Origin: Leptolyngbya subtilissima AS-A7
GTDB lineage: Bacteria > Cyanobacteriota > Cyanobacteriia > Phormidesmidales > Phormidesmidaceae
Length of the DNA stretch: 64,000 nt
Direction of reading: 5' to 3'
Assembly: GCF_039962255.1 (NCBI RefSeq)
Contig: NZ_JAMPKY010000001.1
Coordinates: forward strand, 682,001-746,000
In this document: positions 16,887-36,534 of the stretch, one piece after another
How positions within the stretch are numbered: position 1 is the first letter of the stretch
Layout: each line of letters opens with the position of its first letter
Program-made: the position numbers and the translations under genes
Notes under the pieces: generated by a model
What the model saw: the letters and a program-made list of their open reading frames with translations, nothing else
Told to the model about the DNA's origin: nothing
Database searches by the model: none

Positions 16887-16892
16887 GCATCC

Positions 16893-19022
16893 TCAAGCAT
16901 CTAAGACGAGTCCGGCTTTAGCGAGTGCTTCTCGAAGGTGAGAGGCTGCTTCTGCTTGAGATGTTTTCTCCTTAGATAGGATAGCGACACCTTGTTGGGC
17001 TAAACGGCTCCGGGTTTCTAAATCTAACTGGGTCGATGAGTGAATAACCACAGGGATGGACTGAGTAGCGGGGTTATGCCGAAGCTGCTCAAGTGCTTCA
17101 AAGCCACTCAGCTCGGGCATTTCCAGGTCAAGCAGAATGGCTGAGGGTTGTTCACTCTCTGCTACGGACAATCCTTCCCGTCCATTGGCAGCCTCCAAAA
17201 ACTGTAACGGCAAATTGGTCAACAACTGTTTAACCACATATCGATAAGCTGGGTCATCATCAATAAGTAAGAGTTTCTGAGCTTTGCCCTGGCCGACTAG
17301 CCGATTGAGCTTGGTGAGTAAGGGCAATTGGTCTACAGGCTTAATCAGGAATCCGTCAGCGCCTAGGGCAGTGGCCTGCTTTTCGTTATCTACAACCGTA
17401 ATCACCAATACGGGAATGTTGCGAGTTGCCTCATCACTTTTAAGCTCTCGCAGAAATGTCCAGCCGTTTTGCCCTTCTAGCAAGATGTCTAGCACGATCG
17501 CGGCTGGCTGAACCTGCTGTAGGGCTTGTCTGGCTTGAGCCAAGGTGCGGGTGGCGATCAGCTGATATCTAGACGCTTGCAGGTGCTTCTCGTAGATAAA
17601 TAGCGTCTCAATATGATCTTCGATCGCCAGAACGGGTAAACGGGCTGGGTTCAGGGAAGTGATTGGTCGTAATGAGTCTGGTAGCTCTGTCACTTTAGGG
17701 TAGACGATCGGAATGCAGACTGAGAAGGTAGACCCTTGACCCAGTTCACTGTGAACGGAAACGTTGCCCCCCATGAGCTCGGCTAGCTTAGAGGATATTG
17801 GCAGTCCTAGCCCTGTTCCTTTTACCTGCCTTTGCAGCGCAGACTCAATTTGCACAAAATCCTCAAAGATGCGCTCCTGGTCGTCCGGTGAAATGCCGAT
17901 GCCGGTATCAGACACCGAGAGCTGAATCATCTGACCGACTTGCTCAGCTGCGACTCGCACCTCTCCCTGCTCCGTAAATTTAAGCGCGTTTGAGATAAAG
18001 TTTCTGAGGATTTGAGCAATCTTTCCCTCGTCGCTATAGAGCGAGGGCAGCCCGTCGGGTTCATCAAACACGAGCGACACAGATGAACCCTGAACCAGCA
18101 GCGGACGCAGCATGCCCCGCAGGGTGGCAAACAGGTCACTCACTTCAAAGATACTGGGATTCACCTCAGTTTTGCCGGCTTCTACCTTGGCCAAGTCCAG
18201 GAGATCGTTGACCAGCTCTGACAACCCATCGGCCGCTTTTTGAATGAACGTTACCTGCTTTTCTTGCTCTAGGGACAGCTCCCCATCCATCCGAGTTAGC
18301 AGCATGCGAGAGAGGGACAAAATCGAGTTGAGCGGCGTGCGAAACTCGTGGCTCATGTTAGAAAGAAAGCGAGTTTTGAGCTCGTTTGCCTGTTGCAGAG
18401 AGCTGGCTTTCTCGTCTAATTCGGCGTATAGGGCAATTACGCCTCGATTGGTGTCTTCTAACTCGCGGTTGAGGTAGGTTAGCTCTTCTTCTCGCTTGCG
18501 GAGCTCGGCCATCGCCCGCAGCAATTCCTGGTTTTGCCGCTGAATTTCGTCGTAGGGGTTTTGGGGCGATCGCCCCACGACGGCCTCCCGAATCTGCTGC
18601 AATTCTAAATCTGTGAAAATGGGCGATCGCTTGGGCAGGGCTTTGCTGATTTTCACGGTGGTTCCCTGCTCGGTCGATTCGATCTCGAAGGACTCCATCA
18701 GCCGGCGCGTGCCAACGATCCCTAGCCCCATGCCCGTAGAAGACTGATAGCGTCCCGCTAAGACCTCGCTTAGATGCGGAATACCCCCGCCCTGATCTTG
18801 CACCTGAATCAGGAAGGTTTGGGGGCTTTCCTCCAGGTCAAACGTCACCGTGCCACCCTGGGCATACTGAAACGCGTTGCGGGCAATTTCTGAAACCGCC
18901 GTGGCTAACCGCGCCTGATCTTGCCCGTCGAACCCCAGTTGTTCTGCCAGCTCGCGGGTGCGCTGCCGCGCCTGCACTACATCCTGTTCGTAGTGGATTT
19001 CCAGGGTGAAGAGGGTTGTCAT
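16893..19022 (-). CDS. RsbT-like ATPase domain fused to hybrid histidine kinase with two receivers
   Basis: Residues 1-130 are an RsbT/RsbW-type HATPase domain (AVSEIARNAFQYAQGG, QDQGGGIP, GMGLGIVGTRRLM). A coiled coil (about 155-215) links it to HisKA (His225 in NMSHEFRTPLNSIL), a kinase HATPase (FISNALKFTEQG, DTGIGI, GTGLGLPIS), receiver 1 (about 470-585, VLDILLEGQNGW) and receiver 2 (about 592-709, LLDLEMPELSG). The N-terminal domain is of the type that docks on STAS proteins, so this protein can plausibly connect the stressosome core to a phosphorelay. Its start overlaps the preceding gene by 4 bp (ATGA), which implies translational coupling. Confidence 0.92.
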   Translation of the reverse strand: MTTLFTLEIHYEQDVVQARQRTRELAEQLGFDGQDQARLATAVSEIARNAFQYAQGGTVTFDLEESPQTFLIQVQDQGGGIPHLSEVLAGRYQSSTGMGLGIVGTRRLMESFEIESTEQGTTVKISKALPKRSPIFTDLELQQIREAVVGRSPQNPYDEIQRQNQELLRAMAELRKREEELTYLNRELEDTNRGVIALYAELDEKASSLQQANELKTRFLSNMSHEFRTPLNSILSLSRMLLTRMDGELSLEQEKQVTFIQKAADGLSELVNDLLDLAKVEAGKTEVNPSIFEVSDLFATLRGMLRPLLVQGSSVSLVFDEPDGLPSLYSDEGKIAQILRNFISNALKFTEQGEVRVAAEQVGQMIQLSVSDTGIGISPDDQERIFEDFVQIESALQRQVKGTGLGLPISSKLAELMGGNVSVHSELGQGSTFSVCIPIVYPKVTELPDSLRPITSLNPARLPVLAIEDHIETLFIYEKHLQASRYQLIATRTLAQARQALQQVQPAAIVLDILLEGQNGWTFLRELKSDEATRNIPVLVITVVDNEKQATALGADGFLIKPVDQLPLLTKLNRLVGQGKAQKLLLIDDDPAYRYVVKQLLTNLPLQFLEAANGREGLSVAESEQPSAILLDLEMPELSGFEALEQLRHNPATQSIPVVIHSSTQLDLETRSRLAQQGVAILSKEKTSQAEAASHLREALAKAGLVLDA

Positions 19023-20026
19023 GCTCCCGTTCCTTTCGCCACCAGCATGGTTACATCATCCCGCTCACGATGAAAATCACGGTGTAACACACCGGCGATC
19101 AGGCTGGGATGCTTTTGGCTTAGGCCGGGGTAGCGATCGAGATTCCACTGAGTGCTGATGCCATCGGAGTGCATCGTTAGCAGCCCGTTGAGGTACCAGG
19201 GGTAGGTAAACTCCTTGATCTTACGAACTTCATGGCCCACGGTGCCGTTGTAAGACATCATGTTGTGATGTTCGGTGGCGGAAGAAATGCTGGCCGCAAT
19301 ATTGCCAATGCCTGCAAAGCAAACGGTCTGCTGCTCAAAGTTGATCTCAGCGATCGCCAGAGCTGCCCCTCGGGTGCTGCGCAACGCCGCATGGGCCGCT
19401 TCGACAATGCGCTGGGGCGACTGGTGATGACAATCGTGAAACACGCGGATAGCGGCGGTCGCCGCGCTGGCCGCCGCAGGACCATGGCCTAAACCATCTA
19501 CCACCAGAAACAGGCTGCGGCGCTCATCCCCTTCCCAGGCCGAGGCATCTCCTGAAACCTCCTCGCCCAGTTTCGGTAAAGCGACCACACCAACTTCAAT
19601 GATTTTGGGTGACGAATGGGGAGACGTTTTTGCCCAAATATGAGCGAGCAGTGCCGTTCCCTTATTGGGCTGCGAGTAGATTTCAAAGAAGTCAGAGAGG
19701 CGGCGAATTGCGCCTAGCCCATTGCCCGATGTTCCGGCGGTAGAAAAGCCATCTTGCAGGCATTCTTCCACATCTACCATGCCAGAACCTTGGTCTAGCC
19801 CCAAAACTTCGATGCCGATGATGTCGTCTTGGGCGATCGCCCTCAGCACAATCACTCCGCGACCTGCGTGCCGGATGAGGTTGTTCGCCACCTCTGTTAC
19901 CAAAAGGCCAACCTTGCCCCGTTCGGTTTCTTCAAAGCCAAGCCGAGTGGCTAATGCTAGAGAGGCTCGCCGTGCTTCCCCAGTTTGACTCTGCTCGGTG
20001 ATGGCGATCGCCGTAGATTCATTCAA
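19019..20026 (-). CDS. RsbT/W-like HATPase domain fused to PP2C-type phosphatase (RsbX/RsbU-like)
   Basis: Residues 1-130 form an anti-sigma-type HATPase domain (LVTEVANNLIRHAGRG, DQGSGM, GNGLGAIRRLSDFF). Residues ~145-335 form a SpoIIE/PP2C phosphatase domain with metal-binding aspartates in VVDGLGHGPA, MHSDGIS and ERDDVTML. In known stressosomes RsbX removes phosphate from RsbR and RsbS and resets the system; here the phosphatase carries its own docking or kinase-like domain. It lies 14 bp after the RsbT gene and overlaps the next kinase gene by 4 bp. Kinase activity of the N-terminal part is not certain. Confidence 0.88.
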   Translation of the reverse strand: MNESTAIAITEQSQTGEARRASLALATRLGFEETERGKVGLLVTEVANNLIRHAGRGVIVLRAIAQDDIIGIEVLGLDQGSGMVDVEECLQDGFSTAGTSGNGLGAIRRLSDFFEIYSQPNKGTALLAHIWAKTSPHSSPKIIEVGVVALPKLGEEVSGDASAWEGDERRSLFLVVDGLGHGPAAASAATAAIRVFHDCHHQSPQRIVEAAHAALRSTRGAALAIAEINFEQQTVCFAGIGNIAASISSATEHHNMMSYNGTVGHEVRKIKEFTYPWYLNGLLTMHSDGISTQWNLDRYPGLSQKHPSLIAGVLHRDFHRERDDVTMLVAKGTGA

Positions 20027-20040
20027 TTGATAACCTCGAA

Positions 20041-20439
20041 TTACTTCCAGCGTACGACGATTATTCGCGTTCCTTCTCCTACCACAGACTCAATTTTAAA
20101 CTCGTTGGCCAGCCGCTTTGCACCTCCTAACCCCATCCCCAGCCCGCCCCCTGAGGTGAAGCCATCCTTGAGCGCCATTTCAATATCTGGAATGCCTGGC
20201 CCCTGATCTTCAAAAGTGAGCCTGAGACCGCGCCGCCCACCGTCCTGAAGCGTTTCTAACTGAACAGTTCCCCCTCCTCCATAATCTAGGGTGTTGCGAG
20301 CGAGCTCGCTGGCAGCGGTGACAATTTTGGTTTGATCTACTAAACCAAAGCCAAGCTCAATGGCAAACTGGCGCACGGCTTGTCTAACCAAAACCACATC
20401 CGCAGAAGATTGAATTTTCATCTCCTCAATCTTCTGCAT
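20041..20439 (-). CDS. rsbT: RsbT-like serine/threonine kinase of the stressosome
   Basis: A single HATPase domain of about 130 residues. It has the N box AASELARNTLDYGGGG, G1 box EDQGPGIPDIE and G2 region GGGLGMGLGGAKRLANEF, very close to Bacillus RsbT. It would phosphorylate RsbR and RsbS and leave the complex when activated. The frame is open to 20478, but two ATG codons (20439, 20421) are more likely starts. The one at 20439 overlaps the end of rsbS and gives the N-terminal length seen in RsbT; the one at 20421 follows GAGGAG but with almost no spacing. Confidence 0.88.
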   Translation of the reverse strand: MQKIEEMKIQSSADVVLVRQAVRQFAIELGFGLVDQTKIVTAASELARNTLDYGGGGTVQLETLQDGGRRGLRLTFEDQGPGIPDIEMALKDGFTSGGGLGMGLGGAKRLANEFKIESVVGEGTRIIVVRWK

Positions 20440-20842
20440 CGTCTTCCATGTCCCATTCCGTAGAAATGAACCGATCATTTGCGGATTTAGCGACCGTCGC
20501 CTGCAACAGTGTCATCCCCTTTTCCACATTCAATGCTGTGCGAATGCCGGTGAGGGAAAGCCCTAGCTCCACCAAGGTAATCGCGACGGCAGGTTGCATG
20601 CCAACAACCACCGTTTCAGCATCCATGACCTGCGACATTTTGGCAATGTTGCCTAAAATTCTACCGATGAAAGAATCGACAATATCTAGCGCAGAAATGT
20701 CAATTAAAACCCCGCTGGCGTTGGTTTGACTAATGCGATTAGTCAGGTCATCTTGTAGTGTCATTGCTAGGCGATCGTGCATGTCGACCTGAATGGTGAC
20801 GAGCAGAAATTCGCCCATTTGAAGGATGGGAATCCGTTCCAT
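20426..20842 (-). CDS. rsbS: RsbS-like STAS-domain scaffold protein
   Basis: A 138-residue single STAS domain beginning MERIPILQMGEFLLVTIQV, very like RsbS (IPILK..G.LIVSIQ). The phosphorylatable serine is present as Ser57 in DIVDSFIGR, and VVGMQPAVAITLVELGLSL matches the conserved core. RsbS holds RsbT in the resting stressosome. The C-terminal ~20 residues are acidic. It starts 13 bp after rsbR, and rsbT overlaps or abuts its end. Confidence 0.92.
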   Translation of the reverse strand: MERIPILQMGEFLLVTIQVDMHDRLAMTLQDDLTNRISQTNASGVLIDISALDIVDSFIGRILGNIAKMSQVMDAETVVVGMQPAVAITLVELGLSLTGIRTALNVEKGMTLLQATVAKSANDRFISTEWDMEDDAED

Positions 20843-20855
20843 TCTTTCCTCTAAC

Positions 20856-21707
20856 CTACTTGCGGGTGATGGTGGTTCCCTTTCGCCTTAATGCCATGAG
20901 AAAGGCATCAGCTAAGGTTGCTTTTGTGGTTACATCAGCTAAATCGATGCCGAGATATACGATTGTTTGGGCAATTTGAGGTCGAATGCCGCTAATGATG
21001 CAGTCGGCGCCCATGAGGCGAGCGGCTGTAACCGTCTTCAGCAAATGTTGAGCGGTCAGCGTATCGACGGTCGGCACCCCAGTGATGTCAATAATGGCAA
21101 CTTCTGAGCCGGTTTCAACAATCTTCTGCAGTAGCGACTCCATTACGACCTGAGTACGGGCACTGTCGAGGGTGCCAATGATCGGCAAGGCCAAAATGCC
21201 GTCCCAAAGCTTGACCACTGGCGTAGACAGCTCCATCATTTCTTCCTGCTGCCGCAATATCACCTCTTCTCGCGACTTTTGATAGGCTTCTACCACTAGC
21301 AGCCCTAGGCGATCGAGCAGGTTGGTGGCTTGCCAAATCTCTTCACCGAGCTCAGCGGAGTTTTGCAGTTGCTTCCGCAGACAATCAAAGAGCGGTCGCT
21401 TGAAGGAAAAGATAAAGGTAGCCGTTTCACTGGGCGTGAAGCCTTTGTGGGAGCGCGATCGCGAGATGCTAGTCAGCAGTTCTCGCACCTCTCGCCATTC
21501 GAGCGCCTGAATATTGCTCAAGTTACCGGATTGAGCCGCGACGCGAAGCAACTTGAGAAACTCTCGGCACTCTACCTGTAGCTCTGCTTCTTTAATCAAC
21601 CCTTTGCGGGTGTTTGTAGCGATTAGTTCCTGATTCCACTCCGACAGCAATTCTGCCTCATGAGTTTTCAGTATCTCCGGTATCTTACTGGTGTGAGTCA
21701 TTTCCAT
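20856..21707 (-). CDS. rsbR: RsbR-like stressosome sensor/scaffold (RsbRD_N + STAS)
   Basis: The N-terminal ~150 residues are all-helical and resemble the RsbRD_N domain (LLSEWNQELI, RSHKGFTPSETATFIF), in place of the globin-like sensor of Bacillus RsbRA. The STAS domain (about 165-275) contains DITGVPTVDTLTAQHLL and SGIRPQIAQTIVYLGIDL. The threonines equivalent to Bacillus Thr171 and Thr205 are both present (Thr216 and Thr248). It is the first gene of the operon and presumably the input; the signal sensed is unknown. MEM and MTH starts are both possible, two codons apart. Confidence 0.92.
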   Translation of the reverse strand: MEMTHTSKIPEILKTHEAELLSEWNQELIATNTRKGLIKEAELQVECREFLKLLRVAAQSGNLSNIQALEWREVRELLTSISRSRSHKGFTPSETATFIFSFKRPLFDCLRKQLQNSAELGEEIWQATNLLDRLGLLVVEAYQKSREEVILRQQEEMMELSTPVVKLWDGILALPIIGTLDSARTQVVMESLLQKIVETGSEVAIIDITGVPTVDTLTAQHLLKTVTAARLMGADCIISGIRPQIAQTIVYLGIDLADVTTKATLADAFLMALRRKGTTITRK

Positions 21708-22686: not shown

Positions 22687-25600
22687 ATGATTGTAGACGA
22701 ACCGACTCAGGCGCACATCGAGGAAGATGTTTTTGTCTTTCCCGCCTCGTTTGCCCAACAGCGTTTGTGGTTTATTGACCAGCTACTTCCGGGAAATGCT
22801 CTCTACACGAGTCCTTTGGTGTTTCGGCTTAGCGGTCACTTAAAGCGATCGCACCTTCAGCGCAGTATGCAAGCGATCGCTCAGCGGCACGAAATTTTGC
22901 GCACCTCATTTGATGTCGTTGATGGTCAATTAATGCAGGTCGTCGCCGCTCAGGTGGATGTGCCACTGCCGTCAATAGATCTGCGATCGCACCCTGCTAA
23001 CCAGCGCGAAGTCATAGCGTTACAAGACATTTGGGAGACCCTTCAACACCCGTTTCACCTCAATCAAAGACCGCTTTTTCGGGCGCAACTGTGGCAATTG
23101 CAGGATGACGAACATCTGATGCTAATTGCGCTGCATCACATCATTTTTGATGAATGGTCAAGCGGTGTTTTGATTCGAGAATTGGGTGAGGGATACGCTG
23201 CTTCAGTCGAAAACAAATCCATCGCACTACCCGAATTGCCGATTCAATATGCGGATTTTGCTCACTGGCAGCGGGAATGGTTGCAGGGTGAGGTGCTGAA
23301 TACTCAGTTGAGCTATTGGAAACAGCAGTTAAAGGATATCCCAGTTCTGCAGTTGCCGGGTGCGTTGTCGCCTACATTAGGGCAACCTTTATCTCAAGAA
23401 CATCAGGGCGCAAGTCAATTGCTGGAACTGCCTCAGCGATTATTGGAGGCGTTAGAAAACCTGAGCCAACAGGCGGAGGTGACGCTGTTTATGACCTTAC
23501 TAGCAGCATTTCAAACCCTGCTGCACCGCTACACCGGACAAACCGATTTAGCGATCGGCACTCCCATTGCCAATCGACATCAGAGTGAATTAGAAGGGCT
23601 AATCGGCTTTTTTGTGAATAGCTTAGTTTTGCGAACCAACGTAGAGGGCGATCCGACGTTTTTGGAATTGTTAGAGCGAGTACGAGAAGTTACCCTAGCC
23701 GCCTACGATCACCAAGATTTACCGTTTGAAAAACTGGTCGAGGAACTGCAACCTGTTCGCAACCTCGGTCAAAATCCCCTATTTCAAGTAGTGTTTGCTC
23801 TGCAAAACACACCCATGACGCAACTAGAATTACCGGGTCTAATTCTTAGCCCGGTAGATTTGGTAATCAAGACATCTCGCTTTGACTTGGAATTTTACCT
23901 TTGGACCTGCGGCGATAACTTTAGAAACTTGTGGGGTAAGGGTTGGCAAAACTCAGACGGGTTGCGGGGTATGGTGATTTACAACACCGAGCTGTTTGAG
24001 TCAACCGCGATCGCATCGCTACTCAAGCATTTTCAAACGCTGCTAGAGGGAATTGTAGCCAGCCCAAATACGCCTCTTTCTGCCCTGCCATTATTAACCA
24101 TTGAAGACCAACAAGTATTGCTCCACCGTTGGAGCAGCAATCAATTCAAATATCCTAGCAATGAGTGCATTCATCATCTGTTTGAGGTGCAGGTGAGGGA
24201 ACGACCCAATGCGGTCGCCCTGCAGTTTGGCAACCAACAATTCACCTATCAGCAGTTGAATCAGGGCAGCAACCAACTGGCGCGGTACTTGCAACGATTG
24301 GGCATTGGTTCAGAAATGCCCGTCGGTATCTGTCTGGAACGGGGCATAGGTGCGATCGCTGCAATGTTGGCAATCCTCAAAGCAGGAGGAGTTTACGTAC
24401 CTCTCGACCCCAGCTATCCTGCAGAGCGGCTGCGCTTTATGGTGAAAGATGCGGGCATTACCGTCATTCTCTCGGAAGCAAACTGGGTAGATGAATTACA
24501 AACGGCGACTACTAAGGTGGTTTGTTTGGAGCAATCGTGGGACGCGATCGCCCAGGAATCAGACCAGAATCTATCCACTTCCTGTACCGCCGATCAGCCC
24601 GCCTATGTCATCTACACCTCTGGCTCTACAGGAACCCCAAAAGGCGTTGTGGTGCCCCATCGAGCGGTAAATCGGTTGGTATGCGATACCGATTACGTGC
24701 AGATTACAGGTGACGATCGCGTGGCGCAGGTGGCAAACCTTGCTTTTGATGCTGCCACCTTCGAAGTGTGGGGTGCGTTGTTAAACGGCGCTCACCTGAT
24801 TGGTATTGAGCGAGAAATTACGCTGTCTCCCTCTGATTTTGCGGCTACCTTACAGCAGCAAAATATTAGAATTCTGTTTCTCACCACTGCTCTGTTGAAC
24901 CAAACCGTTAGTCAGATTCCCGATGCCTTCCGATCGCTCAAATATTTGCTGTTTGGCGGTGAAACGGTAAATGTTGATAGGGTGCGATCGCTGGTGCAAC
25001 AGGGCAAACCTCAACACTTGCTTCACGTTTATGGACCTACAGAAAACACAACATTTTCCACCTGGTATGAGATTCAGGAAATTCTAGAAACCGCTACTAC
25101 AATCCCCATCGGTAGGGCAATCGCAAATACTCAGGTTTACCTACTGGATGCCCACCAGAACCCTGTTCCTACTGGGATGGTTGGGGAAATTTACCTAGGT
25201 GGCGATGGATTAGCAAACGGATATTTGAATCATCCAGAGTTGACCGATGAAAAGTTTGTTCGCTCAAAGCTATTAGACTTAAATTTTGCCTGCAACGAGT
25301 ACCAGGATTTAATTCTGTATAGAACAGGCGATCGCGCTCTTTATCACCCCGACGGCAATTTAGAATTTTTGGGTCGCGTAGATAATCAGGTCAAAATTCG
25401 GGGTTTTCGAGTCGAGCTAAGTGAGATTGAGAAAGCGATCGCACAGCATTCTTCGGTACAATCCGTCGTTGTCGTCGTACGCGAGATCGACCAAGATCGC
25501 CAACTAGTCGCCTACGTTATTTTCAGTGCAGCGGCAGACCTAACTGAACGAGAACTACGATCGCTGCTAAAAAAACAGCTCCCTGCCTATATGATTCCGG

Positions 25601-26016
25601 CGGCGTTCGTAGTGCTGGACTCGCTTCCCTTAACCGCCAACGGTAAAGTAGACCAAAAAGCATTACCCCCACCAACGCTGCATCGGGCAGCATTCAGCGC
25701 AACGACGGCTCCGACAACGTCTTTAGAGACGACTCTAGTAGAGCTTTGGATGCAGCTATTGGGACAACAACAAGTGGGTATTCACGACAATTTTTTTGAG
25801 CTGGGAGGACATTCTTTGTTGGCCACTCAGTTTGTTTCACGGGTACGCGATCGCTTACACGTCGAGTTGCCCCTGCGCAGCATCTTTGAAACCCCCACCA
25901 TTGCTGAACTAGCACAACAAATCACCGCCATTCAGGCAACACTTCAACCCGAAACCGCTTCAACCAGCGATCAAAGCGGAGCCAATTCTCAACGACGTGA
26001 GGAAATAGATCTATGA
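22687..26016 (+). CDS. Nonribosomal peptide synthetase module, C-A-PCP
   Basis: Activates and loads one amino acid. The condensation domain spans about residues 15-450 with HHIIFDE at 150-156; the usual Gly after the Asp is Glu here. The adenylation domain (about 470-1000) has core A3 as YVIYTSGSTGTPKG (from 640), A5 as YGPTENTT, A7 as YRTGD, A8 as NQVKIRGFRVELSEIE and A10 as NGKVDQKAL. Reading pocket residues against GrsA gives D-A-F-F-L-G-V-T-F-K, which I associate with Ile/Val-type substrates, with moderate doubt. The carrier domain has GGHS with phosphopantetheine Ser1043. The leading C domain, with no upstream module in view, may use an acyl starter or a free partner. The stop overlaps the start of the next gene (ATGA). 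Confidence 0.93.
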   Translation: MIVDEPTQAHIEEDVFVFPASFAQQRLWFIDQLLPGNALYTSPLVFRLSGHLKRSHLQRSMQAIAQRHEILRTSFDVVDGQLMQVVAAQVDVPLPSIDLRSHPANQREVIALQDIWETLQHPFHLNQRPLFRAQLWQLQDDEHLMLIALHHIIFDEWSSGVLIRELGEGYAASVENKSIALPELPIQYADFAHWQREWLQGEVLNTQLSYWKQQLKDIPVLQLPGALSPTLGQPLSQEHQGASQLLELPQRLLEALENLSQQAEVTLFMTLLAAFQTLLHRYTGQTDLAIGTPIANRHQSELEGLIGFFVNSLVLRTNVEGDPTFLELLERVREVTLAAYDHQDLPFEKLVEELQPVRNLGQNPLFQVVFALQNTPMTQLELPGLILSPVDLVIKTSRFDLEFYLWTCGDNFRNLWGKGWQNSDGLRGMVIYNTELFESTAIASLLKHFQTLLEGIVASPNTPLSALPLLTIEDQQVLLHRWSSNQFKYPSNECIHHLFEVQVRERPNAVALQFGNQQFTYQQLNQGSNQLARYLQRLGIGSEMPVGICLERGIGAIAAMLAILKAGGVYVPLDPSYPAERLRFMVKDAGITVILSEANWVDELQTATTKVVCLEQSWDAIAQESDQNLSTSCTADQPAYVIYTSGSTGTPKGVVVPHRAVNRLVCDTDYVQITGDDRVAQVANLAFDAATFEVWGALLNGAHLIGIEREITLSPSDFAATLQQQNIRILFLTTALLNQTVSQIPDAFRSLKYLLFGGETVNVDRVRSLVQQGKPQHLLHVYGPTENTTFSTWYEIQEILETATTIPIGRAIANTQVYLLDAHQNPVPTGMVGEIYLGGDGLANGYLNHPELTDEKFVRSKLLDLNFACNEYQDLILYRTGDRALYHPDGNLEFLGRVDNQVKIRGFRVELSEIEKAIAQHSSVQSVVVVVREIDQDRQLVAYVIFSAAADLTERELRSLLKKQLPAYMIPAAFVVLDSLPLTANGKVDQKALPPPTLHRAAFSATTAPTTSLETTLVELWMQLLGQQQVGIHDNFFELGGHSLLATQFVSRVRDRLHVELPLRSIFETPTIAELAQQITAIQATLQPETASTSDQSGANSQRREEIDL

Positions 26017-29000
26017 CCAACTGGGCGATCGCTGACTTTATTTCTCACCTCAACCACCTAGATATCAAGCTCTCCCTCGAACCCGACCCCGCTGTTTCTC
26101 CCCACCCATTCCGACTCCGCTGCAACGCCCCCGAAGGTACCCTCACCCCCACCCTCCGTCAAGAACTCACCGACCACAAAGCTGAACTCATCACCTACCT
26201 ACAAACGAACCCAAATATCCAAGAACCGCAGTCAAAAAATAGTCTCCCATCCACCCTCCCACCCATCCACCCTCCCACTCATCCACCCTCCCACTCATCT
26301 ACTCCCGCTCCCCTCTCCTTCGCCCAACAGCGACTCTGGTTCCTCTACCAGCTCGCCCCTCACAACCCCTTCTACAACGTACCTGCCGCCATTTGCCTAA
26401 CGGGAACGCTTGATCGCTCGGCATTAGAGCGATCGCTTCAGGAAATTGTGCGCCGCCATGGTGCCCTGCGCACCCGATTTACAACCGTGGATGGGCAACC
26501 TGTTCAAGTCGTCGAACCCAACGCCAATGTCGAACTTGCTGTGGTGAATTTACAGTCGGTTGCGCTTGGTGAACGCGATCGCATTCGGCAACAATTGGCG
26601 ACGGCTGAGGCCCAACGCCCATTTAACCTGACGACCGATTCTCTGTTGCGCGTGACATTGCTGCACTTCGATGCAGCAGAATCAGTGTTGTTGCTAACCA
26701 TGCATCACATTGTTGCCGATGGGTGGTCTTTGGGGGTATTGATTCGAGAATTGGGATATTTCTATACGGCATTTGTAGAGCAGCGATTGCCGACTCTCCC
26801 TCCCTTGCCAATTCAGTATGCTGACTTTGCGCGCTGGCAACTCAATTGGTTGCAGGGAGAGATCTTAGAGAAACAACTGAGCTATTGGCGACAACAATTA
26901 CAAGATTTACCCGTACTGGAACTGCCCAGCGATCGCCCTCGTCCTGCTGTTCAAACCTATCGAGGCGCGACCTATCCTTTACATATTTCCCCTACCCTTT
27001 CCCAAGCATTAGAGACGTTCAGCCAGCAGTCTGGAGCGTCTCTTTTCATGACCCTGCTGGCAGCGTTTCAAACCTTGCTTTACCGATACACAGGGCAAGA
27101 AGATATCGCGATCGGGTCACCCATTGCCAACCGTCATCGCAGTGAGGTAGAGGGGCTAATTGGCTTTTTTGTGAACAGTTTGGTGATGCGATCGGATTTG
27201 TCGGGTAACCCAACCTTTCGCGAATTGCTGGAGCAGGTTCGTCAGGTTGCTCTGGGAGCATATGAGCATCAAGACTTACCCTTTGAGAAACTGGTTGAAG
27301 AATTAGACCCCGATCGCGATCTGAGCCGCAATCCCTTGTTTCAGGTTGCTTTTGCTCTACAAAATGCCCCTGTGCAATCCTTAGAGTTACCAGCATTGAC
27401 GCTAGAACCTGCCCCCCTAGAGTCTGCTAGCACTCGCTTTGATCTAGAGGTTCACCTGTGGGAACCTGCCCACGGATTGAAAAGTGTGTGGCGATCGCAA
27501 GACGGTTTGAGCGGCTTCATTTCCTACAGCACTGATCTATTCGATCGCAACAGAATCGCTCGTCTGGTGGGTCATTTTCAAACGCTGCTAGAAGGAATTG
27601 TCGCGAATCCCGATGCCCGGTTGTCAGGCCTGCCGTTGCTCACGCCCGAGGAATATCAACAGATTTTGTATGACTGGAGCTTTGGGAGATCCCCTCTAGC
27701 TCCCCTTGATAAGGGGGAGAGCAGAAGTGCAGCTGAAGTTTCTCATCAGGGAGAACTCGGCAAGGAGCCAGATCCCTACTTTCATCACATTGTTGAAGCC
27801 CACGCAGAACAAGCTCCAAACGCGATCGTTCTTGTCACCGAATCTCAAACCCTTACTTATCAGGAACTTGATTGCAAGGCCGATCAACTAGCAGAAACTT
27901 TGAGGCAAATGGGAGTGCAGCCCAATTCGCTAGTGGGGTTGTGTGTCGATCGCTCTGCCGATGTGGTAATTGGCATTCTCGGCATTCTCAAAGCGGGAGC
28001 AGCCTATGTGCCGCTTGACCCGACTTATCCGAGCGATCGCCTCCAGTTCATTCTTGATGACACGCAAGTTTCCATCCTGCTCACACAATCCTGGCTTACC
28101 GAATCCTTACCCGCAACTTCGGCAACCATTGTTTGCTTAGATCAGCCATTGTGCCCTCATCCCCCAACCCCTTCTCCTAATCAGGGAGAAGGGGAGAAAG
28201 AGGATAGCCTGAAGCTAGAAGAAACTCCTCCAGGTCGGTCCCCCCTCTCCCGCCACTGGGAGAGGGGGCCAGGGGGTGAAGGATCTTCCGATCTGGCCTA
28301 CGTTATCTATACCTCTGGTTCTACGGGCACCCCCAAAGGAGTTTTGCTCTCTCATCGGGGCTTGTGTAACGTTGTACAGGCTCAACAACAGCTCTTTCAA
28401 CCCACTCGCACTAGCCGAGTTTTGCAGTTTAGCTCTCTCAGCTTTGATGCATCTATTTTCGAGATTGCCCTTGCCCTCGGTTCTGGCGGCACGCTTTATA
28501 TTCCTCCCAAAGCTGCCCAATTGCCGGGTATAGCCCTAATACAATTTCTGCAAGAGAATGCCATCACTCACGCCCTAATCACGCCAGCCGTACTCGCCGT
28601 TTTGCCCCCTGGGGAACTGCCTGACCTTCAGGTGTTGGTCACTGGGGGAGAAGCCTGCTCTAGCCAGGTGATCGATCGCTGGGCTGTCAACCGCCGCTTC
28701 TTCAACGCCTATGGACCCACCGAAACTACGATCTGGGCAACGGTTGCCGAACTTCATCCTGGCGACAATCCTCTGACGATTGGTCGCCCTGTTCTCAATA
28801 CTCAGGTCTATGTTCTGGATGCCCACTTAAATCCCGTTCCGGCAGGCATTCCAGGGGAGTTGTACATCGGCGGGACAGGGGTGGCCCAGGGATATCTCAA
28901 TCGCCCGGAGTTGACGGCGGAAAGGTTTATCAATGTGGAGTGTTTAGGGCTGAGAGCCGAGTTAAAAAGCACCTTCTCTACAGCCAATAAACAGCACCCA

Positions 29001-31856
29001 ACCCTTTACAAAACTGGTGATCGCGTCCTTTACAACCGCGACGGCACCATCCAGTTTCTCGGTCGAGTCGATCATCAGATCAAGATCCGAGGTTTCCGGG
29101 TCGAGTTGGGTGAAATTGAAACAACGATACAGCGTCATTCTGCTATTCAAGATGCTGTTGTCATCCCCTCCGCTGCCTCGTCTCTGATTGCCTACTTCAG
29201 CCTTGATCCTCAGTATCTGCAAGAAGCGAGTGTGCGATCGCTTCAAACTCAACATCTGCAACAGTGGCAAACCCTCTACAACCAAACCTACCAATCACCA
29301 GAATCCCCTCATCCTCCAACTCCCAGCTCCCAACCCTTCGATATTACCGGCTGGAACAGCAGCTATACCGGAGAGCCCATTCCGCTGGAGCAGATGCAGG
29401 AATGGGTAGGCGATCGCGTTCAGCAAATTCTGGCACTGAAACCTAAACGCGTTTTGGAAATTGGGTGCGGTACAGGATTGCTGCTGTTTCAAATTGCGCC
29501 GCACTGTCAAAAGTATGTAGGCACAGACTTTTCGGCTGTCTCCCTGGCATCAGTTCAACATCAACTAGACTCGCTCAATCTCTCCCATGTCGAGCTGTTG
29601 CAGCGCATGGCAACCAACTTTGAAGGGATTGATCTAGGGACATTCGACGTCGTGATTCTAAATTCGGTTGTGCAGTATTTTCCCGATGAGACCTACTTGA
29701 TGCAGGTCTTGAAAAAAGCGATTGAAGCTGTTGCGGAGGGCGGTGCCTTATTTGTTGGAGATGTGCGAAACCTACCTTTGTTATCGGCATTCCACAGCTG
29801 GATGAAATTTGTTCAGGCAGAGGCCAGCATGGAGCGATCGCAGCTTCGGCATCAAGTTGAGCGATCGCAGTTTGAAGAGCCAGAACTGGCCATTGATCCG
29901 GCATTTTTTTACGCGCTGCAAGAGCAATTTGCCCAAGTTCAGCAGGTTCACATTCGCCTAACCCGAGGGCGCAGTCAAAATGAAATGACTCAGTTCCGCT
30001 ACAACGTTTTGCTGCGAATGGGGCAATTCCGAGAGGTTAGCTTGAGGCATGAGACGCAACCTGCAACCGCTATCAAAGCAAGCAAAGGGGCGCAACTCAA
30101 TTGGAAGCATCAGCCAGTGACCGTCCAAGAGATTCAGCAACAACTCCTGGCCACCGAACCAGAAATCCTCACCATTACGAATGTGGCCAACAGCCGAGTG
30201 AGTGCTGCTGTTGCAACAGCGCACTGGCTCCAGAACAAGAAAGCGCCCAAAACCGTGGGCCGCATGCGCGAGCTATTGCAAGACGCTGCCAACTCAGCGA
30301 TCGATCCGCAGGACTGGTGGAGTTTAGAAACAATATTGCCCTACACGGTGGAGATTACCTGGTCAGCATCGTCTGAGACTGGAGATTATGATGTGGCGTT
30401 AATTCGTCACGGGGTTGATGTAGCAGATATTGCACTACGGCCCAGGGAGCGATCGCCCCAGCCGTTCACCAACTATCCACTTCAGGCGAATGTCGCTCGG
30501 CACCTTGTGCCTGAGCTGCGGCAACATCTCAGCCAGACCTTACCCGACTACATGGTTCCTGCCGCCTTTGTGCCGTTAGCCACCCTGCCGTTAAATTCCA
30601 GTGGTAAGGTCGATCGGCGTGCTCTGCCCCCGCTTGACCTTACCCACAGCAGCGATTCACCTGCGGCAAGCGCCCCCCAAACCTCAACCGAGACCGCTCT
30701 CATTGAGATCTGGCAAGAACTCTTACAGCTCAAGCAGGTCAACCGTCACGACAACTTTTTTGAGTTAGGTGGGCATTCCCTACTCGCGACCCAAATGACC
30801 TCTCGCATCCGCGACACCTTTGAGTTAGAACTCCCGCTCAAGAACGTTTTTGCCGCTCCCACCATTGCCCAATTAGCGCCCATTCTAGACGCGTTGCGCA
30901 ATACTACCCCGAGCACGCCTCCCCTCGTTCGGCTCGATCGCACCGCTTACCGACGCAAATCCTCGACTTTGCTAAACCAGCCGGCTCAGGCTACTTCCGT
31001 TCCTCCCCAACCGGAAGCGCCAGCACTCAACACAGTCACCCCATCCCCTACTTCGCCGCTGGTTCCCCTGGCTTTGGGCGGCAGCAGTCCTCCCTTCTTC
31101 TGTGTGCATCCTATGTTTGGGGTCGTATTCCCCTATATGGAACTGGCTCATCACCTGAAAAGCGAGCGCAGTTTCTATGGGTTACAACCCCTCGGGTTAG
31201 ACGGCAAATCTCAGCCCCTAAACCGAATGGAGGCAATCGCGGCCTATTACATTCAAGCCATTCAAACCCTGCAACCTCATGGGCCTTATTACATAGGAGG
31301 TTGGTCTTTTGGGGGATTGGTTGCCTATGAGATGGCGCAACAACTCACTCAAGCAGGCGAAACAGTTGAACTGTTGGCAATTCTCGATACTACGGCTCCC
31401 TGCACCAAACCCTCTCTTTGTCAGAGCTTTAAGTTTCTAGTGAAAACTGCCCTCCGGTCTACCCTGCCATTTTTGCTAGACTTTAGCGCTCTAGCAACCC
31501 ACCGCCTACAAGCTAAACCGTGGTTTTCTCGCTGGCAATGGTCAGCCATCACCCGATTAATTCCTGAAGAGTCTCGATTGCGTCTATTAAATGAATCCGC
31601 CATCAACGCCATGCTGCCCATTGTCTATGCGAATAGTCAGGCGACCAACGATTATGTGCCTCAGCCTTACTCTCACGCGATCGCACTATTTAAGGCAGCA
31701 GACCAATCAGATGCTAATCAACCTGATGAAACATTGGGCTGGAGTGAATTAGTGAAGGACATTCAACTGCACGAAGTCCCCGGCAACCATTTATCGTTGC
31801 TAAAACAACCTCATGTGCAAGTTCTGGCGCAACAACTCAGACGTTATCTAACCTAG
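26013..31856 (+). CDS. Nonribosomal peptide synthetase, TubC_N-C-A(N-MT)-PCP-TE
   Basis: The terminal module. Residues 1-65 fit the TubC_N docking fold (ISHLNHLDIKLSLE, then LRQELTDHKAELI), so it should pair with the upstream protein. The C domain (about 100-540) has HHIVADG at 231-237. The A domain has A3 YVIYTSGSTGTPKG from 763. A methyltransferase (SAM motif VLEIGCGTG from 1147) is inserted between A8 and A10, the position of N-methyltransferases. The carrier serine is 1589 in GGHS. The thioesterase has GWSFGG (Ser1765), a likely Asp in LAILDT and His in PGNHLSLL. The A-pocket reads about D-A-F-L-V-G-A-I-W-K, which I cannot assign. The product should be an N-methylated peptide released by TE. 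Four linkers are encoded by DNA repeats. Confidence 0.93.
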   Translation: MTNWAIADFISHLNHLDIKLSLEPDPAVSPHPFRLRCNAPEGTLTPTLRQELTDHKAELITYLQTNPNIQEPQSKNSLPSTLPPIHPPTHPPSHSSTPAPLSFAQQRLWFLYQLAPHNPFYNVPAAICLTGTLDRSALERSLQEIVRRHGALRTRFTTVDGQPVQVVEPNANVELAVVNLQSVALGERDRIRQQLATAEAQRPFNLTTDSLLRVTLLHFDAAESVLLLTMHHIVADGWSLGVLIRELGYFYTAFVEQRLPTLPPLPIQYADFARWQLNWLQGEILEKQLSYWRQQLQDLPVLELPSDRPRPAVQTYRGATYPLHISPTLSQALETFSQQSGASLFMTLLAAFQTLLYRYTGQEDIAIGSPIANRHRSEVEGLIGFFVNSLVMRSDLSGNPTFRELLEQVRQVALGAYEHQDLPFEKLVEELDPDRDLSRNPLFQVAFALQNAPVQSLELPALTLEPAPLESASTRFDLEVHLWEPAHGLKSVWRSQDGLSGFISYSTDLFDRNRIARLVGHFQTLLEGIVANPDARLSGLPLLTPEEYQQILYDWSFGRSPLAPLDKGESRSAAEVSHQGELGKEPDPYFHHIVEAHAEQAPNAIVLVTESQTLTYQELDCKADQLAETLRQMGVQPNSLVGLCVDRSADVVIGILGILKAGAAYVPLDPTYPSDRLQFILDDTQVSILLTQSWLTESLPATSATIVCLDQPLCPHPPTPSPNQGEGEKEDSLKLEETPPGRSPLSRHWERGPGGEGSSDLAYVIYTSGSTGTPKGVLLSHRGLCNVVQAQQQLFQPTRTSRVLQFSSLSFDASIFEIALALGSGGTLYIPPKAAQLPGIALIQFLQENAITHALITPAVLAVLPPGELPDLQVLVTGGEACSSQVIDRWAVNRRFFNAYGPTETTIWATVAELHPGDNPLTIGRPVLNTQVYVLDAHLNPVPAGIPGELYIGGTGVAQGYLNRPELTAERFINVECLGLRAELKSTFSTANKQHPTLYKTGDRVLYNRDGTIQFLGRVDHQIKIRGFRVELGEIETTIQRHSAIQDAVVIPSAASSLIAYFSLDPQYLQEASVRSLQTQHLQQWQTLYNQTYQSPESPHPPTPSSQPFDITGWNSSYTGEPIPLEQMQEWVGDRVQQILALKPKRVLEIGCGTGLLLFQIAPHCQKYVGTDFSAVSLASVQHQLDSLNLSHVELLQRMATNFEGIDLGTFDVVILNSVVQYFPDETYLMQVLKKAIEAVAEGGALFVGDVRNLPLLSAFHSWMKFVQAEASMERSQLRHQVERSQFEEPELAIDPAFFYALQEQFAQVQQVHIRLTRGRSQNEMTQFRYNVLLRMGQFREVSLRHETQPATAIKASKGAQLNWKHQPVTVQEIQQQLLATEPEILTITNVANSRVSAAVATAHWLQNKKAPKTVGRMRELLQDAANSAIDPQDWWSLETILPYTVEITWSASSETGDYDVALIRHGVDVADIALRPRERSPQPFTNYPLQANVARHLVPELRQHLSQTLPDYMVPAAFVPLATLPLNSSGKVDRRALPPLDLTHSSDSPAASAPQTSTETALIEIWQELLQLKQVNRHDNFFELGGHSLLATQMTSRIRDTFELELPLKNVFAAPTIAQLAPILDALRNTTPSTPPLVRLDRTAYRRKSSTLLNQPAQATSVPPQPEAPALNTVTPSPTSPLVPLALGGSSPPFFCVHPMFGVVFPYMELAHHLKSERSFYGLQPLGLDGKSQPLNRMEAIAAYYIQAIQTLQPHGPYYIGGWSFGGLVAYEMAQQLTQAGETVELLAILDTTAPCTKPSLCQSFKFLVKTALRSTLPFLLDFSALATHRLQAKPWFSRWQWSAITRLIPEESRLRLLNESAINAMLPIVYANSQATNDYVPQPYSHAIALFKAADQSDANQPDETLGWSELVKDIQLHEVPGNHLSLLKQPHVQVLAQQLRRYLT
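26248..26295 (+). repeat. Three tandem 16-bp units in the NRPS docking-to-C linker
   Basis: CATCCACCCTCCCACC/T occurs at 26248-26263, 26264-26279 and 26280-26295. The unit is not a multiple of three, so each copy is read in a different frame, giving a Pro/His/Ser/Thr-rich linker. The same unit recurs in the other orientation at 44944-44975. Confidence 0.9.
27691..27720. repeat. Palindromic repeat in the NRPS C-A linker
   Basis: CCCCTCTAGCTCCCCTTGAT is followed by AAGGGGGAG; CTCCCCTT and AAGGGGGAG form the stem. It is translated as RSPLAPLDKGE between the C and A domains and resembles dispersed cyanobacterial intergenic repeats. Confidence 0.7.
28153..28281. repeat. Double-hairpin repeat inside the NRPS adenylation domain
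   Basis: Two palindromes: CCCCTTCTCC (28168-28177) with GGGAGAAGGGG (28184-28194), and a perfect 11-bp stem CCCCCTCTCCC (28241-28251) with GGGAGAGGGGG (28258-28268). The element is read as about 43 Pro/Gly/charged residues between adenylation motifs A2 and A3, where other A domains have a short loop. Confidence 0.85.
29306..29335 (+). repeat. C-rich repeat in the linker before the NRPS methyltransferase
   Basis: CCCCTCATCCTCCAACTCCC is of the same style as the other C-rich linkers and is read as SPHPPTPSSQP. It is short and imperfect, so its link to the repeat family is tentative. Confidence 0.45.
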
Positions 31857-32889: not shown

Positions 32890-35800
32890 ATGCTAAATCG
32901 CTTCTGGGAAGTGCTGGGCTACGTGTTTGCTCTCAACGATGAAGCTTTTCGCATTGCTACTACCGTACCAGCCGGCAGAAGCCTGGCGCTGTTAGTGGTT
33001 CTGCTGGCGGGGCTATCCCTGGGCATTGGGCAGAGCATTATTCTCTTTGTCAACCAAGTGCGGCCCGCCCGGTTTGTGCTCAGCCTAGGCATCAATGCAG
33101 TGCTATTTGTCTTAGGCTTCTTGGCCCTGGTGTTAAGCACCTGGTTGGTGACCCTGATGCCGTGGGCGCAGAATATGTCCTTTGGGCAGCTAGTGACGGT
33201 GCTGGGGTTGGCCTACGCCCCGCTGCTGTTCAGCTTTTTGGGAGCGCTGCCCTACCTGGGGATGCCCATTCTCAACCTGCTGTCGGTGTGGCATTTGCTG
33301 GCCATGGTGGTGGGTTTTGGGGCGATCGCAAACCTGGGCCTCAGCCACGCCTTTAGCTACGTCGCCCTGGGCTGGATTTTGCTGCAAGTCTTGCAAAACA
33401 CTGTGGGTCAGCCCATAGCCAATTTGGGCAAGCGCCTTGCTAACAGGGCGGCGGGGGTCAATCTCGTCACCAATCGCCGAGATTTGACCGAGTCGTTTCA
33501 ATCGGGGCTGGCTGAAACCTCTACCCGCTGGCACGAAGAGTTTACCCAGCGATTTAGCGCCTTCAACCAGGGCGATGCGTTCGCCCCCGTTACTGGGGAA
33601 CCCCCAGCCCTGGCTATGGCCGGAGCTGGGGGCTCGACCGTTTCTATTGATGCTGGCCCAAACGGCGATCGCCTTGACAGTTTTAAGACCCTGCTCGGTC
33701 TGGCTGCTATGGCGGTGCTGACGGTGGTGGTGCTGGCGCTGCTGCGGCCCATTCGCGTCTGGTGGTTCGGCTGGTTGAGTGACCTGCCCAGCCTAGTGCT
33801 GCTGGTGCTGAACTTTGTCTGGATTGGCATTGTCGCCCTGGTGGTGGCTGGGCTGCTGGCCCCACTCGAAACCCTGGGCTGGTGGGCCGGCTGGTATGAC
33901 GACGAGGTCAACACCACCGTCAACGCGGGAGAGCTGGCCGAGCCCGTGGGCGATCGCGGCAAAATCAGCCGCTATATGGTTTACCTTGACGGCATTGGCA
34001 TTTCTAGCTTTGAGTACCTGCCCGACATCAAAGAATTTCTCGATACCCTGGCTCCCACTCTGCCCCAAGGCGTGGCGCTGATTCGCGGCATCATGCCCTA
34101 CTCAGTGATGAATGCGCCCCTGGATGAAGATCGGCCCCTGTCGTTCCTATGGCGCTACGCCGACAAGCTGCGATTTGCCAATCCCATGAGCGTGCTGGGC
34201 CTGCTGGTTAACATTCGCAACGTGTTGATTGTGGGCGTGTCAGCCGACAAGCGCTACGGTCCGCTCTACAACCAGGGCATTGCCCAAGTGGTGTTTAACG
34301 GCCTAGTCAAAAATGGCTACCGGGTGGGCAGCGGCACCCCCATCACGCTGATGGGGTATAGCGGCGGCGGGCAGATGTGCTGCGCCAGTGCCCCCTACCT
34401 CAAGCGGGCCCTAGGTGCGCCCATCGACGTGATTTCCCTGGGCGGGGTGATCAGCGCCAATATCAACCTGCTTCAACTAGAGCATCTTTATCACCTGTCG
34501 GGAGAAAAAGATGTGGTGGAAAAGCTGGGGCCAAAGATTTTTCCGGGGCGCTGGCGGCTGTATCCTCTGTCGTTCTGGAATCGGGCTAAGCGGCGGGGCA
34601 AAATCTCGTTCATTTCCCTAGGGCCGGTGGGCCATCAGGTGCCGGGGGGCATTCTCGACCCCAAGCTGGTGCTGCCCGATGGCCGCAGTTCCCTCGGGCA
34701 GACTATCGATACTATCAACGCTATTCTGCAGGGCGAAATGTTGGAGGTCGGGCTAGAGCGGGGCGGCAAAGCAAACAACTACGATATCTTTCGCGCCAAC
34801 CCCCTGGTGCAGTACCAGAGCTATCCGCTCGATCAGCGCCTAAACCCAGCGCTCTACGTGCCTATTGCCGACTGGATTGGCCGGCTGATTTTGCCCGCCA
34901 AGGCTGAGCGCTTTGGTGGCGTCTTCTACGAAATTCACCACGCGCCCGACGACCACCGCAAGCTGTTGGGCCAGGTGGTGAAGCTGCGCTGGTCTGACAA
35001 CCCCCTCACCCAACAGATGGTGCAGGCCGTCACCCACGATGTGCACTTTAGCGCCGATGCCGAGTACGCTAGTCGCTTTGGTGGGGTGATTAACCCGGTG
35101 CGGCTCAACCATTGGCTACGGGTCGACCCGTTAGAATCTCTGGCCGGATCGCTGCCGGAGGATGACCTAGTCGTGGTGGTAGAAAATCCTCAGGTGGTGC
35201 TGGATCGGGATGGGGTAACGCTCTTGATCGCGGCTCAACCGATGGAGGTGACAGGGCGCTATTTCGGCCTGGTGCAGTTTGTGGGGCCAACGGCAGGCGA
35301 CCAGTGGCGAGTACGGCACTTTAACAAAGTCAGCCGCGCTTTTGACGGCCCTGAGGAGGTGGTGAGCCTGCCCCCGGTTGCCCCGATGGCGGTCTACGGC
35401 AGCAGTCCCTCTACTACAAAGGCTCTGGAGCGATCGCCCTACAACGAGACCGGTTGGTACATCTACGGTGCGCCCAATGCCAACGGCACCTTTGTGGTGC
35501 AATCCCTCGGTCCCAGAGCACTGTTTCGGCTCCAGCCCGATCGCGTCGTATTTGGCGGAGCAAAATCAGCCTACCGCTACGTTCGCAACGAGGCATGGGC
35601 CGATGTGGTGGTCCAAAAGGGCAAGGTCAGCTCGGTGCTGTGCACAGTGCAGGACAACGGTCGGCCCGAGGCGATCGCAGCGGCAATCGATGAGTGGCAG
35701 GTGGGCGATCGCGCCCTCATCCTCCACACCTACGGCGGCATCGGCGGCAACCACAAAGAACCCGCCGCCGCCACCCCCATTTTCTTTGGCCACTTTGCCT

Positions 35801-36534
35801 ACGGTCGGGCCGAGGTAGTGCACGACCCTCTAGCCGACGAGCGGCGGTTTGAGATTCGCTACTACCAGGTCTACGCCCACAACATTGACGGGCTGATTGC
35901 GGGTACGATTCATTGGTCGCGGTATCAGGGCGATCGCCAGCGGGGCTGGCTGGGTACCCGCCCCACCTGCGACATCTTGGTCAAGCTTGATGCCTTTAGC
36001 CGCCAGTACTATTTTGATGACGAGAGGCGATCGCCCCTCACCCGTATGGAGGCCCACCTGCAAGCCATGACCGCCCGCTATCGCATTGGCGACGGCACCG
36101 GCGGCACCTTTGTGGGCCCGTCGAATAACTGTTCCCAAGACTCGAATCAGGCGCTATTTGCCAGCTTGCAGGGTACCGGCCTCAGCCTCTATCGCCACGC
36201 CGACGCCCTGATCGATCAGCATCCCGACCAGGCTGAGCCTCTATACCAGCTCGCCCTCTTTGGCAAAGACCTCAAAGACACCCTGCAACCCCTAGGGGGC
36301 CTGCGTCCCACATGGGAAAAGAACGAATTTAACCTGGGCAGCTCGATTGAAGACGAACCCGTGCGCAACCTGCTGATGGGGCTGGGCAGCTGGCGCACGG
36401 TGTTTCCCCGCAAGGCCAGCGATGTGGTCGTGCACAAGTTTCTCAAGTACGGCGCCTCGGCCTGGGTACTGCACACTAGTCAGGTGGGTGGTCACGATCC
36501 CGATATTGAACCGATCGCGCCGATGACGTTTTAG
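32890..36534 (+). CDS. Large multidomain membrane protein with hydrolase-like motifs
   Basis: A 1214-residue protein. Residues ~30-175 contain four to five membrane helices in a Yip1-like arrangement, a loop follows, and two more helices lie at about 275-330. From ~365 the protein is soluble: MVYLDGIGI, then GYSGGGQMC with a serine (491) in a nucleophile-elbow context, suggesting an alpha/beta-hydrolase fold. A third part (from ~740) is beta-rich; the fourth (~920-1190) contains AGTIHWSRYQGDR (His1008) and GPSNNCSQDSNQ (Cys1081), a His-then-Cys order seen in circularly permuted papain-like enzymes. That last reading is tentative. I cannot name the family. It could process lipids or proteins at the membrane. 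Confidence 0.75.
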   Translation: MLNRFWEVLGYVFALNDEAFRIATTVPAGRSLALLVVLLAGLSLGIGQSIILFVNQVRPARFVLSLGINAVLFVLGFLALVLSTWLVTLMPWAQNMSFGQLVTVLGLAYAPLLFSFLGALPYLGMPILNLLSVWHLLAMVVGFGAIANLGLSHAFSYVALGWILLQVLQNTVGQPIANLGKRLANRAAGVNLVTNRRDLTESFQSGLAETSTRWHEEFTQRFSAFNQGDAFAPVTGEPPALAMAGAGGSTVSIDAGPNGDRLDSFKTLLGLAAMAVLTVVVLALLRPIRVWWFGWLSDLPSLVLLVLNFVWIGIVALVVAGLLAPLETLGWWAGWYDDEVNTTVNAGELAEPVGDRGKISRYMVYLDGIGISSFEYLPDIKEFLDTLAPTLPQGVALIRGIMPYSVMNAPLDEDRPLSFLWRYADKLRFANPMSVLGLLVNIRNVLIVGVSADKRYGPLYNQGIAQVVFNGLVKNGYRVGSGTPITLMGYSGGGQMCCASAPYLKRALGAPIDVISLGGVISANINLLQLEHLYHLSGEKDVVEKLGPKIFPGRWRLYPLSFWNRAKRRGKISFISLGPVGHQVPGGILDPKLVLPDGRSSLGQTIDTINAILQGEMLEVGLERGGKANNYDIFRANPLVQYQSYPLDQRLNPALYVPIADWIGRLILPAKAERFGGVFYEIHHAPDDHRKLLGQVVKLRWSDNPLTQQMVQAVTHDVHFSADAEYASRFGGVINPVRLNHWLRVDPLESLAGSLPEDDLVVVVENPQVVLDRDGVTLLIAAQPMEVTGRYFGLVQFVGPTAGDQWRVRHFNKVSRAFDGPEEVVSLPPVAPMAVYGSSPSTTKALERSPYNETGWYIYGAPNANGTFVVQSLGPRALFRLQPDRVVFGGAKSAYRYVRNEAWADVVVQKGKVSSVLCTVQDNGRPEAIAAAIDEWQVGDRALILHTYGGIGGNHKEPAAATPIFFGHFAYGRAEVVHDPLADERRFEIRYYQVYAHNIDGLIAGTIHWSRYQGDRQRGWLGTRPTCDILVKLDAFSRQYYFDDERRSPLTRMEAHLQAMTARYRIGDGTGGTFVGPSNNCSQDSNQALFASLQGTGLSLYRHADALIDQHPDQAEPLYQLALFGKDLKDTLQPLGGLRPTWEKNEFNLGSSIEDEPVRNLLMGLGSWRTVFPRKASDVVVHKFLKYGASAWVLHTSQVGGHDPDIEPIAPMTF

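Follow-up and report, generated by a model that had tools for sequence, protein, structure and literature searches.

The locus described here raises the question of what an NRPS of only two proteins makes when no carrier partner in the line lies upstream of its leading condensation domain. The pair lies at positions 22687-31856 of a 64,000-nt stretch of DNA from Leptolyngbya subtilissima AS-A7, referred to throughout as the window. Its genes, domains and docking elements are as follows.

22687..26016, + strand: NRPS protein 1, 1109 aa, C-A-PCP, Ile module (ORF call, Pfam)
22738..24123, + strand: C1, the leading condensation domain (Pfam; HHIIFDEWS at 23134)
24181..25671, + strand: A1 adenylation domain, pocket DAFFLGVTF (Ile) (Pfam, pocket reading)
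25732..25920, + strand: PCP1 (Pfam)
25996..26013, + strand: C-terminal docking tail REEIDL of protein 1 (tail conservation; docking rules in PMC6195595)
26013..26016, + strand: ATGA overlap of the gene 1 stop and gene 2 start (ORF boundaries)
26013..31856, + strand: NRPS protein 2, 1947 aa, TubC_N-C-A(N-MT)-PCP-TE (ORF call, Pfam)
26028..26204, + strand: TubC_N beta-hairpin docking domain, beta2 strand RLRC (Pfam, conservation)
26307..27668, + strand: C2, the elongating condensation domain (Pfam; HHIVADGWS at 26703)
27795..29228, + strand: A2 core, pocket DAFLVGAIW (Pfam, pocket reading)
29253..30482, + strand: N-methyltransferase inserted in A2, VLEIGCGTG and NSVVQYFP (Pfam; match to PDB 5wmm)
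30504..30608, + strand: A2 C-terminal subdomain, resuming after the methyltransferase insertion (Pfam)
30696..30878, + strand: PCP2 (Pfam)
31092..31817, + strand: type I thioesterase (TE), GWSFGG and PGNH (Pfam, motifs, structure model)

In protein 1, Pfam resolves Condensation (residues 18-479, E 6e-101), AMP-binding (499-847), AMP-binding_C (913-987) and PP-binding (1016-1078). Protein 2 opens with TubC_N (6-64), Condensation (99-552, 1e-115) and AMP-binding (595-962), and continues with a methyltransferase (1148-1246), an AMP-binding_C remnant (1498-1532), PP-binding (1562-1622) and Thioesterase (1694-1935), so that the methyltransferase sits inside the A domain, before its last subdomain. 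Every catalytic motif sought in the window is intact: HHIIFDEWS, HHIVADGWS, YTSGSTG, two copies of FFELGGHS, VLEIGCGTG, NSVVQYFP, GWSFGG and PGNH. Each residue has its own C-A-PCP set and a TE stands at the end. The ORF coordinates and the order C-A-PCP / TubC_N-C-A(N-MT)-PCP-TE given in the initial annotation are confirmed by the ORF list, Pfam and these motifs. The anatomy, completeness and order of the line, its docking and its Ile module are read directly from sequence, and the pair is a compact modular NRPS, notable for its constancy and wide spread.

The initial annotation had left room for missing upstream modules elsewhere in the genome. A PF00668 profile search of the host genome (5.66 Mb, 18 contigs, rated 100% complete) found exactly two condensation domains, C1 and C2, which rules such modules out. 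The same genome contains seven PCP/ACP matches, the pair's two and five others: a 95-aa ORF, two single-module A-PCP-TE proteins, a FAAL-ACP protein and the ACP of an adjoining PKS. We take the match in the 95-aa ORF to be, probably, the fatty-acid ACP. Because of this genome-wide inventory of C domains and carriers, the line is closed, and possible upstream donors are limited to CoA, the small ACP or these few carriers. The FAAL-ACP (G000:C2) adjoins a KS-AT-KR-ACP-sulfotransferase-TE protein of the olefin-synthase type, with the FAAL-ACP and PKS ACP in one cluster, and is unlikely to supply a starter for this reason. Two ACPS-family matches are candidate priming enzymes. No MbtH was found in the genome, ruling out MbtH dependence.

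The five additional carriers leave a route by which C1 could receive its donor in trans from another carrier protein, making the real product longer or a hybrid. However, both A-PCP-TE proteins have a TE of their own, the FAAL-ACP and PKS ACP belong together in the olefin-synthase-like cluster, and protein 1 carries no N-terminal docking domain with which to receive a chain. We regard such a product as improbable.

Conservation of the pair was assessed by a protein search covering 65 genomes from the window's family and 390 from its class, together with a scan of named genomes, which recovered protein 2 orthologues at 57-94% identity. By manual count of the listed matches, the dimodular form occurs in approximately 39 of the 390 class genomes (about a tenth, in a sample that includes the window's own family in full) and in at least seven families; named hosts are Nodosilinea, Phormidesmis, Oculatella, Elainella, Pantanalinema, Leptolyngbya and Gloeocapsopsis. 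Its distribution is patchy, with 8 of the 28 genomes of the genus carrying it. These orthologues rule out an oddity of the window and indicate a widespread cyanobacterial family, invisible from one sequence alone. Cyanobacterial NRPS clusters are often strain-specific, and about half of those in a 2014 survey of the phylum were orphans (PMC4247773).

Gene order is constant, protein 2 always following protein 1, and the 4-nt ATGA overlap is present in every dimodular locus with a measurable boundary (40 loci, some being the same genome present in two collections). In two genomes both proteins form one ORF: L134 (5223-14177, minus strand, 2984 aa, with a partial TE match) and L135, on a partial contig. 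These fused ORFs show directly that protein 1 precedes protein 2. Together with the genome's only two C domains, they uphold the earlier reading of a complete two-residue line with its own thioesterase.

No neighbouring genes are consistently common to the loci outside the genus, and no acyl ligase or ACP gene was found travelling with the pair at the loci compared. An FkbM methyltransferase, Uma2 and a 1214-aa downstream gene were rejected as tailoring genes, being common only within the genus; the 1214-aa protein (32890-36534) has no Pfam or NCBIfam match. An alpha/beta hydrolase beside some loci was likewise rejected as a third pathway gene, since an 83% identical copy lies on another contig of the window's genome. 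Divergent from the NRPS genes, at 14868-21707 on the minus strand, is a stressosome-like set comprising RsbRD_N-STAS, STAS, RsbT-like ATPase and ATPase-SpoIIE proteins and two hybrid histidine kinases. This set is syntenic with the pair, and adjacent to it, in L033, L043 and L049, all Nodosilinea-type loci, and is absent from that position in L044 and other genera. Elsewhere, the window encodes a ProA-like protein below the NCBIfam equivalog cut-offs (41269-42525) and a cyanophycin-synthetase-like ATP-grasp/Mur ligase protein (55600-58401, minus strand).

The contact between the two proteins is also conserved. Protein 1 ends in REE[IVLF][ED][LFV] in all 24 distinct proteins, and the beta2 strand of TubC_N reads RLRC in 28 of 28. 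In Kj12, two salt bridges join the five terminal residues of the tail to beta2 (PMC6195595; PMC9113145); two acids in the tail facing the two arginines of RLRC fit this rule. The C domain of protein 1 begins after only 17 residues, leaving no N-terminal docking domain, and protein 1 is therefore first in line. The xenortide/rhabdopeptide synthetases (XndAB, Kj12ABC) resemble the pair in their small separate subunits, N-methylated short peptides and beta-hairpin docking domains that bind a short tail at the C-terminus (PMC6195595, PMC9113145, PMC6305712). The pair shares with them a beta-hairpin docking pair between separate monomodular subunits, but Kj12A has an N-terminal docking domain where protein 1 has none. 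Rhabdopeptide/xenortide-type NRPSs use a terminal C domain to add an amine, whereas the pair ends in a TE. With this TE and without an N-terminal docking domain on protein 1, docking-driven iteration is not expected.

Substrate pockets were read at positions taken from an alignment with a GrsA fragment. The A1 pocket is DAFFLGVTF in all 26 readable dimodular proteins, a string assigned to Ile, with some Val, in cyanopeptolin synthetase (PMC2533009) and to L-Ile in aeruginosin-type lines (PMC13122637). The initial reading of an Ile/Val-like first pocket thus agrees with two papers that give Ile. Cyanopeptolin synthetase (OciB/OciC) also has an N-methylating module beside its Ile module, with the pocket DAFFLGVTFK, but it comprises seven modules in the order N-Me-Phe then Ile (PMC2533009). 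Members of the main dimodular clade all have DAFL[IV]GAIW as their A2 pocket (DAFLVGAIW in the window), and a MAG (L047) that groups outside that clade has DAFIIGAIW. Neither the A2 pocket string nor a description of the pair was found in the open-access papers searched, so published strings could not be used to assign the A2 substrate, and neither these papers nor annotated plasmid records gave a characterised cluster that matches or a product that could be linked to the pair. At the A2 position, the trimodular sisters have DAF[LI][IV]GAIW or the Leu-type DAWFLGNVV, which makes a hydrophobic residue plausible for the second position, hereafter X.

The methyltransferase inserted in A2 is of class I and aligns with the methyltransferase of PDB 5wmm along 259 residues (E 2e-50), the single further match in PDB being weak; the A-MT-A part of protein 2 (query 757-1541) aligns to 5wmm. 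We take 5wmm to be a backbone N-methylating interrupted A domain. N-methylation by module 2 is strongly expected.

Compared with five Nodosilinea-type relatives by the Nei-Gojobori method, the leading C domain has a dN/dS of 0.091, alongside 0.057 for C2, 0.100 for A1, 0.141 for A2, 0.142 for the methyltransferase and 0.098 for the TE. Invariant sites over 15 sequences amount to 46% in C1 and 47% in C2, and the motif HHI[IV]FDEWS is kept in 24 of 24 distinct proteins. Because C1 is under strong purifying selection and retains its active-site motif, it appears to be in use, and the low dN/dS and motif conservation rule out a vestigial domain. By ancestry, C1 is not supported as a classic starter C domain. 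In the C-domain tree, in which one trimodular fragment (L094) carries a wrong label, the C1 domains of the dimodular and trimodular groups form one clade among the family's own C domains, and three FAAL-linked domains from cyanobacteria lie elsewhere. Bit scores against SrfA-A (8f7h; 104 for C1 vs 126 for C2) and PvdL (137 vs 165) are also lower for C1. Against this small reference set of SrfA-A, PvdL and the three FAAL-linked domains, C1 is no nearer to known starter C domains than C2.

These observations bear on whether the line simply releases an uncapped dipeptide, with C1 idle or structural and the product being free Ile-N-Me-X or a diketopiperazine formed via the TE or spontaneously. The lack of affinity between C1 and known starter C domains would fit such a product, as would the absence of a dedicated starter gene beside the pair in the loci compared. 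The domain order and free N-terminus of the xenortides provide a precedent for an unacylated N-methyl dipeptide. Xenortides derive from two NRPS genes (PMC6305712). However, a plain free dipeptide would not require C1 to be under strong purifying selection, and C1 here is as invariant as C2, with HHxxxD kept. The C1 of beauvericin synthetase, which does not form a bond, is the opposite case, being divergent and without the essential His (PMC5457498). We therefore consider an uncapped dipeptide unlikely. Of the N-methyl dipeptide that the initial annotation predicted, the two-residue line, the N-methylating second module, the dedicated TE and the Ile pocket stand, whereas simple release of a dipeptide sits poorly with the selection on C1.

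Both groups are most simply explained by capping of the first residue, since the trimodular sisters also have one C domain per residue, the first included. Such caps are usually acyl groups. N-acylation by GlbF, a tridomain NRPS module of glidobactin biosynthesis, is named in the title of a work that PMC10587159 cites. As far as that title goes, GlbF resembles protein 1 as a standalone C-A-PCP at the start of a line, but acylation by protein 1 is a suggestion by analogy and C1 is not close to the starter C domains with which it was compared.

We hypothesize that A1 of protein 1 activates L-Ile and that C1 caps the Ile amine, using an acyl group that primary metabolism supplies in trans as acyl-ACP or acyl-CoA. 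Protein 1 would then dock through its REEIDL tail on TubC_N of protein 2, allowing C2 to join the capped Ile to the hydrophobic residue X, which the inserted methyltransferase would N-methylate. The TE would release acyl-Ile-N-Me-X, most likely as a linear acid. As a whole, this self-contained two-protein, two-module route to acyl-Ile-N-Me-X seems to us about evenly balanced between right and wrong. The points that we count for it are the closed C-domain inventory, the fused ORFs, the overlap, the docking, the A1 pocket, the 5wmm match, the constraint on C1, the trimodular C1, GlbF and the ACPS matches. Against it, C1 is no nearer to starter C domains, no acyl ligase or ACP lies beside the pair, and the FAAL-ACP stands next to the olefin-synthase-like PKS.

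The mode of release bears on a further possibility, in which the Ile-N-Me-X unit is reused to give linear or cyclic (Ile-N-Me-X)n, either through the TE, in the manner of bacterial oligomerising synthetases, or by return of the chain to C1. GWSFGG is present in 27 of 28 TEs and the His is conserved. In Foldseek, a TE model of moderate confidence (mean pLDDT 76) has both hydrolysing and cyclising TEs among its matches, including the oligomerising Vlm2 TE. With fold neighbours this mixed, the structure model and Foldseek are uninformative on TE type, and the fold does not decide between a linear acid and a ring. Up to the release domain, the order C1-A1-T1-C2-A2-MT-T2 is shared with the beauvericin and bassianolide synthetases (PMC5457498), leading C included. 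Those enzymes, however, are fungal single proteins ending in T2b-C3. The pair has no terminal T2a-T2b-C3, by which the beauvericin type is defined (PMC5457498), and beauvericin A1 takes D-Hiv, whereas A1 here has an amino-acid pocket (Asp235). The single PCP2, the lack on protein 1 of an N-terminal docking domain like that of Kj12A to receive PCP2, and the mixed TE neighbours of a model of that confidence also speak against iteration, which we judge distinctly unlikely.

The trimodular sister loci carry C-A-PCP, TubC_N-C-A-MT-PCP and C-A-PCP-TE as three genes. Plasmid-borne examples come from Nostoc sp. C057, NIES-3756 and a Lobaria cyanobiont. In the Nostoc plasmid loci (L128, L129 and L130), the gene of the terminal, TE-bearing module comes first, and the pockets are Ile, Leu and DAFTIAAVW. 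Like the pair, the group has an orthologous leading C-A-PCP with an Ile pocket, a TubC_N-C-A-MT-PCP protein, a docking tail and no conserved tailoring gene; unlike the pair, it has its TE on a third module, whose pocket is DAFTIAA[IV]W, and module 2 has a Leu pocket in the Nostoc and two other members. No product for the group was found in the literature or plasmid annotations covered. Two changes are required to place the dimodular form on the protein 2 tree: the MAG L047, with its TE on module 2, groups with trimodular lines, and the main dimodular clade has a trimodular locus, L096, as its sister, a position made unsure by long branches. From these two placements, the third module appears to have been gained or lost at least twice.

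The two- and three-module sister lines offer a natural experiment in NRPS module gain or loss. At about 9 kb without tailoring genes, expression of the whole line is practical, and both its product and the role of its partnerless leading C domain are directly testable. That a standalone pair keeps its docking and overlap invariant, and its pockets nearly so, across at least seven families suggests that one small molecule is worth retaining. More tentatively, and with the balance of probability against it, many filamentous cyanobacteria may use one conserved capped N-methyl dipeptide for signalling or in a housekeeping-like capacity, and C1 may be an ordinary elongation C domain that was recruited as a starter accepting acyl groups, separately from the known lineage of starter C domains.
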